Part shown: piece after piece, positions 427-5,232 of the stretch
Layout: every line of letters begins with the position of its first letter
Position numbering within the stretch: position 1 is the stretch's first letter
NCBI GenBank assembly: GCA_030630935.1
Contig: DAOVMD010000249.1
Location: forward strand, 1-5,232
Length of the DNA stretch: 5,232 nt
Source: Candidatus Mcinerneyibacteriota bacterium
Lineage (GTDB): Bacteria; AUK180; JAQVHJ01
Reading direction: 5' to 3'
Position numbers and translations under genes: made by a program
Notes under the pieces: generated by a model
What the model saw: only the letters and a program-made list of their open reading frames with translations
The model's database searches: none
What the model was told of the DNA's origin: nothing

Positions 427-777
427 ATGGTAAAATCAATTAACTTAGAAACAGAATATAAGGTGGAAGATGAAGAGCAAGTCTCTTTAAGTATTGTCAT
501 TGGTGATGCACAAATTGGATCGTCAATTGTTTTTTTAGATGATAATGAATTAGGACGTAGAGAAATTGAAAATTTAAACATCGGTTTAGGTAAGGATATA
601 AAAGGGCAAAAAATAATTATCAAATCTATCGTAAAGGATATAAATGATATGACCAATTATACTAGTATTACTTATATTTTAAAAGGTGGAATATTTGATC
701 AAACATTTTATTCAAAAGGCGTTGTTGATGAAAATGGCGATTCAATCATATATCGAGCTACTTTCTTTATAATATAA
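427..777 (+). CDS. Small all-beta conserved hypothetical protein
   Basis: This encodes 116 residues with no signal peptide and no membrane segment, so it is probably cytosolic. The start is fixed by AGGAGG at 416-421, five bases before the ATG. The sequence alternates short hydrophobic strands with acidic or glycine turns: LSIVIGDAQIGSSIVFLDD (residues 21-39), GLGKDIKGQKI (53-63), VKDINDMTNYTSITY (69-83), LKGG (85-88), VDENGD (100-105) and a hydrophobic C-terminal strand. This suggests a compact beta-sandwich. The pattern of Q-IGSS, LG-D-KG, D-N-TN-TS-TY and a final YRATF strand resembles uncharacterised proteins I recall from Bacteroidota-like genomes, but no function is known to me. It is the first gene of a run of three. 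Only 26 bases separate it from the next gene, so co-transcription is likely. A binding or regulatory role for the two membrane proteins downstream is inference. Confidence 0.85.
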   Translation: MVKSINLETEYKVEDEEQVSLSIVIGDAQIGSSIVFLDDNELGRREIENLNIGLGKDIKGQKIIIKSIVKDINDMTNYTSITYILKGGIFDQTFYSKGVVDENGDSIIYRATFFII

Positions 778-803
778 CCTATTGGTTCTGGAGGATATTT
801 ATA

Positions 804-1886
804 ATGAAAACTATAAATGACATAAAAAAAATCTTTTTATTTTTAGTGGTTTTATTCATTTTTCACGTTAGCCAATTATATGCTCAAGATGAATTTAAAT
901 TTTCCAACTTTGATGAATTAAGAGTTCCCAATTCACCTGCTCTAAACCTACTTGGTATATCTCCAGCTGACATAAACCGACCAGTCACTCCAAAAGCATT
1001 TATGATTTCAATATTAGAGTCGACAGGTCAATCGAAGAATTTTGCACTTGAAATAACGCCTTATTGGTGGTCTTCACACCCGGAATTAACATTTGATGAT
1101 TATTACTTTGACAAGAGGGGATATGGAGAATCTATGCTGCAAACACTTGCGATTTCAATGGGAAAAACTGAGTTTTCAACAGAAAGGAATGGTAATACAA
1201 TTAGTATTACAAGGATTGGAATGGGATTTCGTCTAAATATTATTAAAGGTCATGTTTCGGAAAAATTTAAAGACGAACTTAAAAAGTTCAAAACCAATAT
1301 CATGTCAATACAACTTAAATATTTAAGTGAACCAGATTCAGAAGATTCTGAAAAGTTGAGGATAAAAGAAGAAGATGATGAGGTTAATAGATTTAGTTTG
1401 GCAATAGAACAATTAGATAAAGAAAGAGTTGGTTGGCAATTGGAATTTGCAACTGCGGTAACTTATGATTTTCCTGAAAATGAATTAGATAATGAGAGAT
1501 TTTCTCGTTTTGGTGCATGGCTTACAGCCTCATATCATCCACACTCATTGGATAAATTGACTTTCCTCGGAATTGGTCGTTATATTTATGAAGATTTATT
1601 TAAAGAAAAAGAAGAAATTTATGATGTTGGTTTTAGTTGTATTCTAAAGTTTAAGCAACCACGAGTTTTAATTTCATTGGAATATTTGCATAGATTTATT
1701 GAAAATGATGATGCTAATCGTTATGTTTTAATATTAGATTACAAAATAAGTGATTCTTATTTTATTTATGTTAATTTTGGTAAAACATTTAATAATGACT
1801 TTAAAAACGATGGAGATTTAGTTGCAACAATTGGATTAAATTGTGGATGGAAAGGAGGTCATGTTGTCAAAGAGAAATTCCAATAA
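804..1886 (+). CDS. Exported beta-rich protein, probable outer-membrane beta-barrel
   Basis: This encodes 360 residues. GGAGG at 790-794 precedes the ATG by nine bases. A clear signal peptide covers residues 1-27: KK at 8-9, a hydrophobic core IFLFLVVLFIF at 10-20, and likely cleavage after LYA before QDE. The mature N-terminus carries VPNSPALNLLGISPADINRP (41-60), then TPKAF and FALEITPYWW (80-89). This matches a motif I recall (P-SPAF-LLG-P-RP-TP, then A-APYW) at the start of uncharacterised outer-membrane proteins of Bacteroidota and relatives. Many alternating amphipathic strands follow, for example GWQLEFATAVTYDF, RFGAWLTASYHP and the final hairpins near SYFIYVNFGKTF and LVATIGLNCGW, as expected of a barrel. 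A charged loop (about 170-205) interrupts them. The C-terminus lacks the usual terminal aromatic, so the barrel assignment is inference. Substrate and role are unknown. The gene lies between a soluble beta protein and an inner-membrane protein, all in one direction. Confidence 0.85.
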   Translation: MKTINDIKKIFLFLVVLFIFHVSQLYAQDEFKFSNFDELRVPNSPALNLLGISPADINRPVTPKAFMISILESTGQSKNFALEITPYWWSSHPELTFDDYYFDKRGYGESMLQTLAISMGKTEFSTERNGNTISITRIGMGFRLNIIKGHVSEKFKDELKKFKTNIMSIQLKYLSEPDSEDSEKLRIKEEDDEVNRFSLAIEQLDKERVGWQLEFATAVTYDFPENELDNERFSRFGAWLTASYHPHSLDKLTFLGIGRYIYEDLFKEKEEIYDVGFSCILKFKQPRVLISLEYLHRFIENDDANRYVLILDYKISDSYFIYVNFGKTFNNDFKNDGDLVATIGLNCGWKGGHVVKEKFQ

Positions 1887-1967
1887 TGAGTTGAAGGCAG
1901 ATAAATATAATTGAATTCAAGAAAAGGATATACGCTATATGTTTGAACAAGGGAGGATTAATTAAAT

Positions 1968-2780
1968 ATGAGCGAAAAAAATAAAAACATAAATCCTGAA
2001 TTTGAAGAATCCATTGAAGCTCTTAAGAAGAGAAAAGAGCATGTACAGCAGAGGATTGAAAGTTTAAAATTTAAGCTTTTCTGGTTAACATTTGCAATTA
2101 TCATATGTGGATTAGTAGGTTATTCTCTGGCATCGTTTTCCAATATTAGGTCTAATAACTTTATACTTCTATCAACTGGAAACCGATTATCCTACATAAT
2201 TATAAGTGCTTTGGTCGGGACATTTATGTATGGATATGTTATCACTTTATTTCGTTTTTCATCACAAGGTACACTGCGGAGAACTGAATATAAATTAGTT
2301 CAACTTGAAGCTAAGGAGGTGCAAGAAAAAATTGAAGAGAGCTTTTTTAGCCAGCTTATTAAAATAAACCTCAAGTACCTTGACCAATACTATCTACAAA
2401 CTCAAGAACAATCAGATAAAAGTTTTCGACTTGCTTCCTCGGCATCAATAATTGGACTTGTAATTATTGCAACGGGAATAATAATGATGTTTTTAGAAAT
2501 GGTGAAACCAGCTTATGTAACTACTGCTACTGGAGTAATTTCAGAATTTATCGCTGCAGTTTTCTTTTACTTATACAATAGAACAGTTTTGAAGATGTCG
2601 CAGTATCATCAAAAACTTGTTATTACTCAAAATATAAGTTTGGCATTGAAAATATCAGAAGACATGGATTCAGACAAGAAAGCAAAAGTCCAAGAAATGA
2701 TTGTTGATAGATTGACATCAGATATAAATAAATATTTATCGATTTCAGATATAAATAAGCATTTATCAATTGAGGATTAA
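1968..2780 (+). CDS. Four-TM inner-membrane protein with TRADD-N-associated-type 2TM domain
   Basis: This encodes 270 residues. The start is supported by GGAGG at 1952-1956, 11 bases upstream. An N-terminal charged coiled-coil-like helix (about 10-35) leads into TM1 (about 36-57) and TM2 (about 75-97). A long helical segment (101-150) follows, with TYR/GLN-rich YLDQYYLQTQEQSDKSF (137-153). TM3 (about 156-178) and TM4 (about 184-204) are separated by a short turn, VKPAYVTTATGV. A C-terminal helix (205-250) and a duplicated tail end the protein. The second half (Y-Q-SF, then GLVIIATGII, then A-GVISEFIAAVFFYLY, then a helix with Y-KL) resembles the TRADD-N-associated 2TM domain described in bacterial conflict proteins. 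I recognise this from memory and could not test it. No TRADD-N, enzyme or nuclease domain is visible in this protein. A signalling or structural membrane role is inferred. It is probably the last gene of the 427-2780 run. Confidence 0.85.
   Translation: MSEKNKNINPEFEESIEALKKRKEHVQQRIESLKFKLFWLTFAIIICGLVGYSLASFSNIRSNNFILLSTGNRLSYIIISALVGTFMYGYVITLFRFSSQGTLRRTEYKLVQLEAKEVQEKIEESFFSQLIKINLKYLDQYYLQTQEQSDKSFRLASSASIIGLVIIATGIIMMFLEMVKPAYVTTATGVISEFIAAVFFYLYNRTVLKMSQYHQKLVITQNISLALKISEDMDSDKKAKVQEMIVDRLTSDINKYLSISDINKHLSIED
2718..2771 (+). repeat. In-frame 27-base tandem duplication at the C-terminus
   Basis: Units 2718-2744 and 2745-2771 match at 24 of 27 bases. They encode SDINKYLSI and SDINKHLSI, which make up residues 251-268 of the membrane protein and are followed only by Glu-Asp and the stop. 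The three differences are A/G, T/C and G/A, one silent in each of the Lys and Ser codons and one changing Tyr to His. This is a fairly recent duplication that extends the cytosolic tail by nine residues. Confidence 0.9.
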
Positions 2781-2940: not shown

Positions 2941-3213
2941 ATGATTGAATATAGTTTTAGTATTTTGAGTTCCAGGGAGGAGACGCTTAAATGTAAACAG
3001 GAAAAGTTTCATGATGTTGAATGTTGTGTTAAAGATATTAATGATTCGGGAAAGAATAATCAACAAACTGAAATTGTACCTGTATTAGAAAAAGCAGGAT
3101 ATTTTTTCCCTGATAAAAAAATAATTAAAAAATTTCCTGAGGAACTAAGAAAAAAATTAATAGTAAGAATTAAAAGTTATTTAAGAAACCAAAAGCAGCA
3201 AGGACTTTTATAA
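2941..3213 (+). CDS. Hypothetical 90-aa basic protein
   Basis: I do not recognise this protein. The start is well supported by AAGGAG at 2928-2933, seven bases before the ATG, with an in-frame TAG upstream at 2920. There is no signal peptide or membrane segment. The N-terminal third has a possible strand (IEYSFSIL, residues 2-9) and three cysteines (18, 28 and 29). A polar NQQ-rich linker (38-44) follows, then EIVPVLEKAGYFFPD (44-58). The C-terminal part is Lys/Arg-rich and helical (KKFPEELRKKLIVRIKSYLR, 63-82), which could bind nucleic acid or an acidic partner. It is separated from the membrane protein gene by 160 bases with a possible promoter, so it may be an independent unit. It could equally be a decayed remnant of a larger gene. 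The good ribosome site and the biased composition make expression plausible, but no function can be assigned. Confidence 0.6.
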   Translation: MIEYSFSILSSREETLKCKQEKFHDVECCVKDINDSGKNNQQTEIVPVLEKAGYFFPDKKIIKKFPEELRKKLIVRIKSYLRNQKQQGLL

Positions 3214-3427: not shown

Positions 3428-5232
3428 ATGAAGAGAGTGATGGTAACATTGTTTATGATAATATTTATGGTATCGACAGCTTTTTCTGCCGGTCCTTTTC
3501 AGCCTATACTTACAGATGTTGCTAATATCCCTGAATTAGAAGATTTGAATTTAATTAAGAGTGATGAACTGCTGACCTTCGGTAATTCATTAACAAAACT
3601 ATATCTATGGGATTTGAACTCAAGGGATTCGATTAATAAAAACTTCCCGATTGAATTGAACGGAAAACTCCTTACTCAGCCGATAACTCAAAGGATTTTT
3701 AATGATGGTCTTAATTACTTAACATATTGTGTTGAGGGTATTGAGGGTAATATTTATTTTCACTGCATTGACTTTAAAGGTTCTGAGTATCCCGGTTTCC
3801 CATTGCTGCTGCAGGATAAGCCTGTTACAACTCCAGTATTTTTACTTATAGAGACCAATGTTTATATAATGTATAGTACAGAATCCGGTCAGGTAATTTA
3901 CTTTGATTTGACTCACAGCTTAATCCCGGAAGAACATCATTCTATTCAAACATCAGGGACTGATACAGAGATTTATCTTAAAGATATTTCCGGAGATACC
4001 CAGAAAGAGTTAATCTGTAAAACATATATTACAGAGAATTATTATGTGATTGAATATTATGAGTATTTAAATGAGGTTTGGGAACTGAGCTCGAATTCTT
4101 TAGATTTTACAGGGGAGATTGGTTCTAATCTTTTATTTCTCGATGTAACAGGAGATAACATTGAAGAGGTAATTTTTGGTGATTCAACCGGGCAATTATT
4201 TATATATTCCATCTTTCCTAACTTTACTTTGATTCCTAACTATCCAAAGGTTATTTCAAACGGTAGTATTGAAATAATTAATTATATTCATGGCAATACA
4301 GTTGCAGTTACAGATTCAAGGAAAAATACGTATGAAATTTCTCTTGATTCATTTTCAAAGGAAAAGATATTAGATAGGAAGTATGCAAATCAATATTCGA
4401 ATTATTCTTTATCTACGTATTTAGATATACCTGGATTTACAGGCATAGTAAATTACTTCACAAGATTTGGGAGCGATGTTACAATAATTAAGGATACCGG
4501 AGAACTTGAGAAATGGGGATACTTCAATCATTCAATTGATAATACATATACAAAACCAATTATCCAGATGCCTTTAGAGAGTATAATCCTTTGTTCAGAA
4601 TTAACAACCGACTACATCCCCGTTATTGCATCCATTACTGCTCCTAATTATTACCCGGATGATTGTACATCCGGTGAGATTTACTGGGCGGCATACCTGA
4701 TTGAAAGTCCATCGAAAGGACTAATAAGATTACCGGTTTCAGATGCGTATATCTTTAATTCCAATCCGAACTTAGGTAAGCGTTCAGAAGTCTGTGCTTT
4801 CAATGATGAAGTTGTTAAGATCCCATTGAATTTAATTTCATCCGGAAATTATACGTTGCTATTAATTGTTCAGGATGGCTTTGGCAGTTTTAACTATGCA
4901 TTACAGGAACTAAATCTTTCATTTGAAGATAAACCGATTGCCGAGATTTATTTCCCTGAAAATTTTGAGATCATTGACACAGAAAAGACAGGGACCCAGC
5001 CTTACATAATCGGTACTGCTGATTTTATTAATCACGATTTCGGTACAGGTTGGCCGATTAATTTGGATTTAATTTTTCATTATTATTTATCATATTCATT
5101 CTTTGAGACACCCGGGAATAAGATTGATTTACCCTGGGGAATTGAACCTGTTATTAACGATGAACTTGGTATATTTGATTTATCACCTTTAAACTCAGAT
5201 AGATATATTATCTACCTTGATGTTGAAATAAC
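3428..5232 (+). CDS. Large secreted beta-propeller/Ig-like surface protein (5' part; runs off window)
   Basis: 601 codons are present with no stop before the right edge, so the protein is longer. AGGAGG at 3414-3419 lies eight bases before the ATG. A signal peptide covers about residues 1-21: KR near the start, hydrophobic VTLFMIIFMVSTAF, cleavage near FSA-G. Residues 30-380 show propeller-like repeats. FG-GAP-like acidic motifs occur at DISGDTQKELI (186-196) and DVTGDNIEEVIFGDSTGQLF (239-258). Blade ends have a recurring aromatic-then-P pattern: NFPIEL (72-77), YPGFPLLL (121-128) and IPNYPKVI (269-276). From about 395 the sequence resembles Ig-like domains (NYTLLLIVQDGFGS, 474-487; PIAEIYFP then YIIGTADF, 503-533). 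Such proteins are often cell-surface or secreted adhesive or carbohydrate-interacting factors in Bacteroidota-related phyla. No catalytic motif is visible, and the C-terminal sorting signal, if any, lies beyond the window. It appears unrelated to the upstream cassette. Confidence 0.85.
   Translation, partial: MKRVMVTLFMIIFMVSTAFSAGPFQPILTDVANIPELEDLNLIKSDELLTFGNSLTKLYLWDLNSRDSINKNFPIELNGKLLTQPITQRIFNDGLNYLTYCVEGIEGNIYFHCIDFKGSEYPGFPLLLQDKPVTTPVFLLIETNVYIMYSTESGQVIYFDLTHSLIPEEHHSIQTSGTDTEIYLKDISGDTQKELICKTYITENYYVIEYYEYLNEVWELSSNSLDFTGEIGSNLLFLDVTGDNIEEVIFGDSTGQLFIYSIFPNFTLIPNYPKVISNGSIEIINYIHGNTVAVTDSRKNTYEISLDSFSKEKILDRKYANQYSNYSLSTYLDIPGFTGIVNYFTRFGSDVTIIKDTGELEKWGYFNHSIDNTYTKPIIQMPLESIILCSELTTDYIPVIASITAPNYYPDDCTSGEIYWAAYLIESPSKGLIRLPVSDAYIFNSNPNLGKRSEVCAFNDEVVKIPLNLISSGNYTLLLIVQDGFGSFNYALQELNLSFEDKPIAEIYFPENFEIIDTEKTGTQPYIIGTADFINHDFGTGWPINLDLIFHYYLSYSFFETPGNKIDLPWGIEPVINDELGIFDLSPLNSDRYIIYLDVEI

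Follow-up and report, generated by a model that had tools for sequence, protein, structure and literature searches.

A putative envelope-linked gene pair from two apparently undescribed families, with varied membrane-protein neighbours, in distantly related bacteria

We identified a gene pair, here called g1 and g2, that recurs in distantly related bacteria and that, judged from its sequences and their distribution, is a real, undescribed and co-diversifying two-gene unit. The pair lies in the window analysed here, a stretch of 5,232 bases that makes up an entire contig (genome G000, 80% complete) and holds five open reading frames (ORFs). Counting the window, the pair was found at 26 loci, which belong to six or more family-level groups, Bacteroidota included. 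A third gene in the window, g3, encodes a predicted membrane protein, and the strict g1-g2-g3 triple is unique to this contig. The original prediction, made from the letters of the contig, had placed all three genes in one envelope module. That interpretation is partly supported: in its strict form it fails, and a weaker form, a pair with exchangeable membrane partners, survives.

All three genes lie on the + strand and start with ATG: g1 at positions 427 to 777 (116 amino acids), g2 at 804 to 1886 (360 amino acids) and g3 at 1968 to 2780 (270 amino acids). The gaps are exactly 26 bases between g1 and g2 and 81 bases between g2 and g3. Shine-Dalgarno-like sequences precede g1, g2 and g3 (AGGAGGAGAAAATG, GGAGGATATTTATAATG and GGGAGGATTAATTAAATATG, respectively), and the ribosome-binding sites read from the sequence fall at 414 to 424 (AGTAGGAGGAG), 790 to 796 (GGAGGAT) and 1949 to 1956 (AAGGGAGG), all on the + strand. 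The predicted layout of three co-directional genes with ribosome sites and small gaps was reproduced in its coordinates, starts and spacing. We take g1, g2 and g3 to be real genes because they are conserved, with relatives at 18 to 49% identity for g1 and g2 and at 44 to 69% for g3. Farther along the window, a 90-amino-acid ORF (2941 to 3213) and the 5′ part of a gene for a long exported protein (3428 to 5230) had no family match in Pfam or NCBIfam.

The 69% identity of g3 to a Flavobacterium protein led us to consider a misbinned Bacteroidota contig. We rejected this because the tetranucleotide profile of the window is nearer to G000 (0.179 to sampled G000 contigs versus 0.252) and because dispersed intergenic repeats at 173 to 326 (no strand), including the hairpin CCCCGAAGTAAATTCGGGG (perfect, CCCCGAA...TTCGGGG), recur in other G000 contigs (blastn against sampled contigs). 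A phage or plasmid origin was likewise set aside after searches of phage, plasmid and viral records gave no support. Phage records, plasmid records and viral contigs contained no match to g1, and plasmids, viral contigs and phages contained none to g2 or to one of its homologues. For g3, viral contigs gave nothing, and the plasmid matches were weak ones from Rhizobium.

Neither g1 nor g2 had a usable match in Pfam, NCBIfam, PADLOC, PHROGs or the sequences of solved structures, and both appear to represent undescribed families. g1 is soluble, with no signal peptide or transmembrane (TM) segment. Comparison of homologues shows Y11 and G26 to be invariant and Q29, G31, G53, D71 and G104 to be nearly so; a single-sequence structure model of g1 reached a pLDDT of only 35, and the all-beta character given to g1 in the original prediction is a possibility. 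The predicted export of g2 is borne out by one N-terminal signal-like hydropathy segment, at about residues 10 to 28 (...HVSQLYAQ), and across 14 homologues the residues P45, L49, P60, P86, G141, G149, W239, R259, G276, E293, Y313 and G326 are invariant. An N-terminal hydrophobic segment ending in LYAQ is what the signal peptide of an outer-membrane beta-barrel protein would look like, and g2 may be such a barrel. Like proteins of that type (e.g., PorP/SprF, TIGR03519), it has a signal peptide, a predicted strand-rich sequence and Gram-negative hosts; unlike them, it has no barrel family match, and its match to TIGR03519 is noise (E 0.038, residues 7 to 68). Strand alternation in g2 was no better than in shuffled sequences, in a test without power, as PorP-like positive controls failed equally. 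Among known anti-phage defence families (PADLOC 2023, at least one core gene), none was found for g1, g3 or g4, and g2 gave only MTase_II at noise level (E 0.0088).

The case for a two-gene unit comes from the loci themselves, which comprise the window, G015, G181, G183, G144, G146, G343, G240, G786 and 17 further Bacteroidota genomes. A g2 or a g2 remnant adjoins g1 at all 26, either directly downstream, with a spacing of 5 to 45 bases, or fused to it, so this part of the proposed linkage holds throughout. g2 is full length at 24 of the 26 loci, one of these being the fusion in G240, where g1 and g2 form a single uninterrupted ORF. At the remaining loci, g2 ends early close to a contig end (G015) or is largely deleted with g1 kept (G1047). 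The two genes also diversify together: their pairwise distances correlate across 14 loci (Mantel r 0.87, p ≤ 2e-4), as they do when the syntenic Bacteroidota set is reduced to one member (r 0.64, p ≤ 2e-4).

The distribution of the pair is very patchy, occurring sporadically across lineages. When 98 relatives were searched with g1 and with g2, both were found only in G015, adjacent and on the same contig. This genome, which lies outside the class of G000, carries the nearest relatives of the g1 and g2 of the window, and both genes were absent from every other searched genome of that class. The phylum of G015 has four more g1 relatives, each with a g2 relative directly downstream (5 of 132 genomes). 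A profile search of 386 genomes added the pair in G343 and the fusion in G240, giving 4 of 386 with G000 and G015 counted. The pair was present in one of 395 Bacteroidota genomes searched, G786, and the family of that genome, presumably Chryseobacterium-like in appearance, contributed 17 more (18 of 320 genomes).

The third gene has a family of its own. Hydropathy places TM segments in g3 at residues 37-55, 77-95, 161-179 and 184-202, and residues 145-208 match positions 2 to 66 of the 68 in PF20712 (E 8.5e-19; 67.9 bits versus a Pfam cut-off of 24.3). PF20712 is the "Cyanobacterial TRADD-N associated 2-Transmembrane domain" (CyanoTRADDas_TM). Because the match passes the cut-off, the resemblance of this four-TM protein to the TRADD-N-associated 2TM family, proposed in the original prediction, was correct. 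The structure model is all-helical and of low confidence (pLDDT 61). g3 thus belongs to a described family, unlike g1 and g2. At the 3′ end of g3, a 27-base tandem duplication (2711 to 2764) that is absent in relatives lengthens the C-terminus (DINKYLSI / DINKHLSI).

Relatives of g3 occur in Bacteroidota at 69, 58, 44 and 44% identity, and those nearest to it, from Flavobacterium, Pedobacter and one further Bacteroidota genome, are single genes in varied surroundings. In five Bacteroidota genomes they stand alone: one beside a DNA cytosine methyltransferase gene, two near candidate defence genes, and the remaining two among sugar-metabolism or other housekeeping genes. The g1 profile had no match in these five genomes, an empty result that is weak on its own, but the same profile did match another Bacteroidota genome. 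None of the 25 other g1-g2 loci has g3 beside the pair. Since its relatives stand alone without g1 and no other g1-g2 locus includes it, g3 falls outside the conserved unit, and the proposed three-gene set, whose homologues rarely occur together, was not upheld. A rival account is that g3 is a chance neighbour, an independent and horizontally acquired standalone gene, with g1-g2 as the whole system. The differing contexts of the five solitary relatives, the missing g1 in their genomes and the missing g3 at the other loci all favour this, and the 81-base gap has room for a promoter of its own. However, the interval between g2 and g3 has no terminator-like site, and in two other genomes the pair lies independently beside TM proteins of the YLATT type. 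We consider a chance neighbour a plausible account that falls a little short of probable.

In one of these two genomes, G944, the gene for a YLATT-pYEATS protein (E 6e-20 and 7e-7; both names are taken from Pfam descriptions) lies about 21 bases downstream of g2, the position that g3 has in the window. In the other, G974, a YLATT protein (E 4e-12) is encoded directly upstream of g1. Seven other Bacteroidota genomes have a 2TM protein of 107-125 amino acids directly upstream of g1, which was below threshold for the TM-effector families (PF18142, E 0.27; SLATT_1, E 0.083). In the tests made, none of the YLATT, YLATT-pYEATS and small 2TM proteins proved homologous to g3. The TM partner is optional, because most loci outside Bacteroidota (G181, G183, G144, G146, G343 and G240) have no TM gene adjacent to the pair; many Bacteroidota pairs also have none. 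A membrane protein from a conflict-associated family thus lies beside the pair here (PF20712) and in two distant genomes (YLATT type), but g3 is not a fixed partner. At the locus in G944 (L071:6483-9325), two-component genes are broken by frameshifts, and the divergent g1-g2 and the YLATT-pYEATS gene are intact, a layout that suggests replacement of the locus content.

Other surroundings were seen at single loci. In G240 (L024:5000-11700), the fused gene is part of an AT-rich island (GC mostly 0.32-0.48, contig GC 0.5-0.6) whose same-strand genes include those for PNP-family and HARE-HTH proteins, together with one attC-like palindrome. Only one of five intergenic sites there folds better than shuffles (z -3.6), and we do not claim an integron origin for the fused gene. 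In G015 (L011:649-4534), the genes ahead of the pair on the same strand encode a papain-family peptidase with a GHSAGS hydrolase-like motif in its C-terminal half, a 316-amino-acid exported protein and a 154-amino-acid membrane/TPR-like protein. As candidate partners, the upstream C1-peptidase/hydrolase gene of G015 and the upstream PNP gene of G240 occur once each.

Most pairs in the G786 family occupy a fixed chromosomal site flanked by ribosomal-protein genes and eno, which is not a defence island. At 16 loci a co-directional run of genes ends with the pair, which is placed between eno and the ribosomal-protein side; the order is NarL-type response regulator, slot 1 (about 260 amino acids), six-TM protein, histidine kinase, a variable slot, g1 and g2. 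Across the 18 Bacteroidota loci the pair follows the regulator and kinase on the same strand, except in L070; in L071 the arrangement is broken. Median pairwise identity falls from 0.88 in the regulator through 0.74 in g2, 0.725 in g1 and 0.71 in the kinase to 0.28 in the six-TM protein and 0.175 in slot 1. Slot 1 encodes a hypervariable soluble protein at 17 loci (L036, L055-L069 and L071; e.g., L055:8439-9851, − strand), and most of these proteins share a short C-terminal tail (YYDMGSLYP, YYDQGSLEP, VYDRNGLCPPP...). Similarity in slot 1 tracks similarity in the six-TM protein (Mantel r 0.88), and it still does so at r 0.86 once the similarity of the kinase, the regulator and g1 is taken out; the two may form a variable ligand-receptor cassette that feeds the two-component system. 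We offer this match as a hypothesis, because linkage of neighbouring genes alone could produce the co-variation. At L059:4936-5703 (+), L060:7045-7758 (−) and L064:5180-5809 (+), the slot just upstream of g1 encodes, in place of a membrane protein, a further soluble one with the same C-terminal tail (LDMGHLYP, LDMGSLYP and NGLCPPGC).

This setting suits a reading of g1-g2 as an ordinary pair for transport or envelope biogenesis, such as a cytosolic helper with its outer-membrane protein, that in Bacteroidota is simply the output of a two-component system and not a conflict module. The same-strand position behind the regulator and kinase at the eno site in nearly all 18 Bacteroidota loci, the stability of both genes there and the several pairs that stand alone amid housekeeping genes are all consistent with it. 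Against it are the very patchy spread across lineages, the neighbours from TM families described in conflict systems and the AT-rich accessory island in G240; we find it credible, at slightly less than an even chance. A small secretion device, in which g2 and an inner-membrane partner export g1 or other cargo, is improbable: g1 is always coupled to an exported protein yet has no signal peptide, TM partners recur and hypervariable soluble proteins with a common C-terminal tail are encoded in the same Bacteroidota operon, but there is no ATPase or known translocase gene, most loci have no TM partner, and the G240 fusion has g1 N-terminal to the signal segment, which would be the cytosolic side if that segment acts as a signal.

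Known systems offer partial parallels. Bacterial TRADD-N systems (eLife 2021, PMC8195603) share with g3 the PF20712 domain, which scores above the curated cut-off. Unlike those conflict systems, the five ORFs of the window have no TRADD-N, variable effector domain, or STAND or caspase partner by Pfam, NCBIfam and PADLOC, and g1 and g2 are not among the TRADD-N neighbourhoods in section 9 of that paper. YLATT (PF20303) and pYEATS (PF20305) proteins are encoded beside the pair in G944 and G974; unlike them, g3 is not YLATT, and g1 has no detectable pYEATS match, PF20305 being unlisted for 20 of 20 g1 homologues at E values as high as 3. In conflict systems, 2TM proteins of the SLATT type are predicted to act as pore-forming effectors (PMC7159879). 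The small 2TM protein beside g1-g2 in seven Bacteroidota genomes shares their 2TM layout but has only sub-threshold matches and no nucleotide-signal enzyme nearby.

The explanation we favour, to which we would give an even chance, is an accessory, envelope-linked g1-g2 unit with an exchangeable inner-membrane partner, g3 being the probable output here. g1 would stay in the cytosol as a small soluble protein, g2 would reach the periplasm or the outer membrane by means of its Sec-type signal peptide, and both would serve one shared pathway at the envelope. The unit would move between lineages and gain a membrane protein as an exchangeable third component, here the Bacteroidota-type TRADD-N-associated TM protein g3, on the same strand 81 bases downstream. 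g3 would then be an inner-membrane output, either a permeabilising or a signalling element, with g1 as its cytosolic partner and g2 as the envelope-side component. We infer the localisation beyond the g2 signal peptide, the joint transcription of g3 and the role in conflict or stress; the proposed span of cytosol, inner membrane and outer membrane would follow from guesses at fold. Against the favoured explanation, the pair can do without a TM partner, PADLOC gives it no usable match, and the fixed site is not a defence island. In all, a chance neighbour and an ordinary envelope or transport pair are nearly as likely, and a conflict role for g1-g2 is possible.

A broader reading is unlikely. 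In it, an undescribed system for conflict or kin recognition would span the envelope, with g1-g2 as its constant core and an inner-membrane element swapped among the non-homologous PF20712, YLATT, YLATT-pYEATS and small 2TM families. In one Bacteroidota family, a two-component system that includes a hypervariable ligand-like protein and a six-TM receptor co-varying with it would control expression of this core. That two-component operon is itself a candidate Gram-negative variable ligand-receptor system. g1 and g2 represent two families that are tightly paired over distant bacteria and that are missing from the general family libraries searched; a function common to many genomes is therefore hidden from annotation at present. 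Membrane partners that recur without being homologous, several of which come from conflict-system families, provide a specific and testable connection from an exported envelope protein to effectors in the inner membrane.
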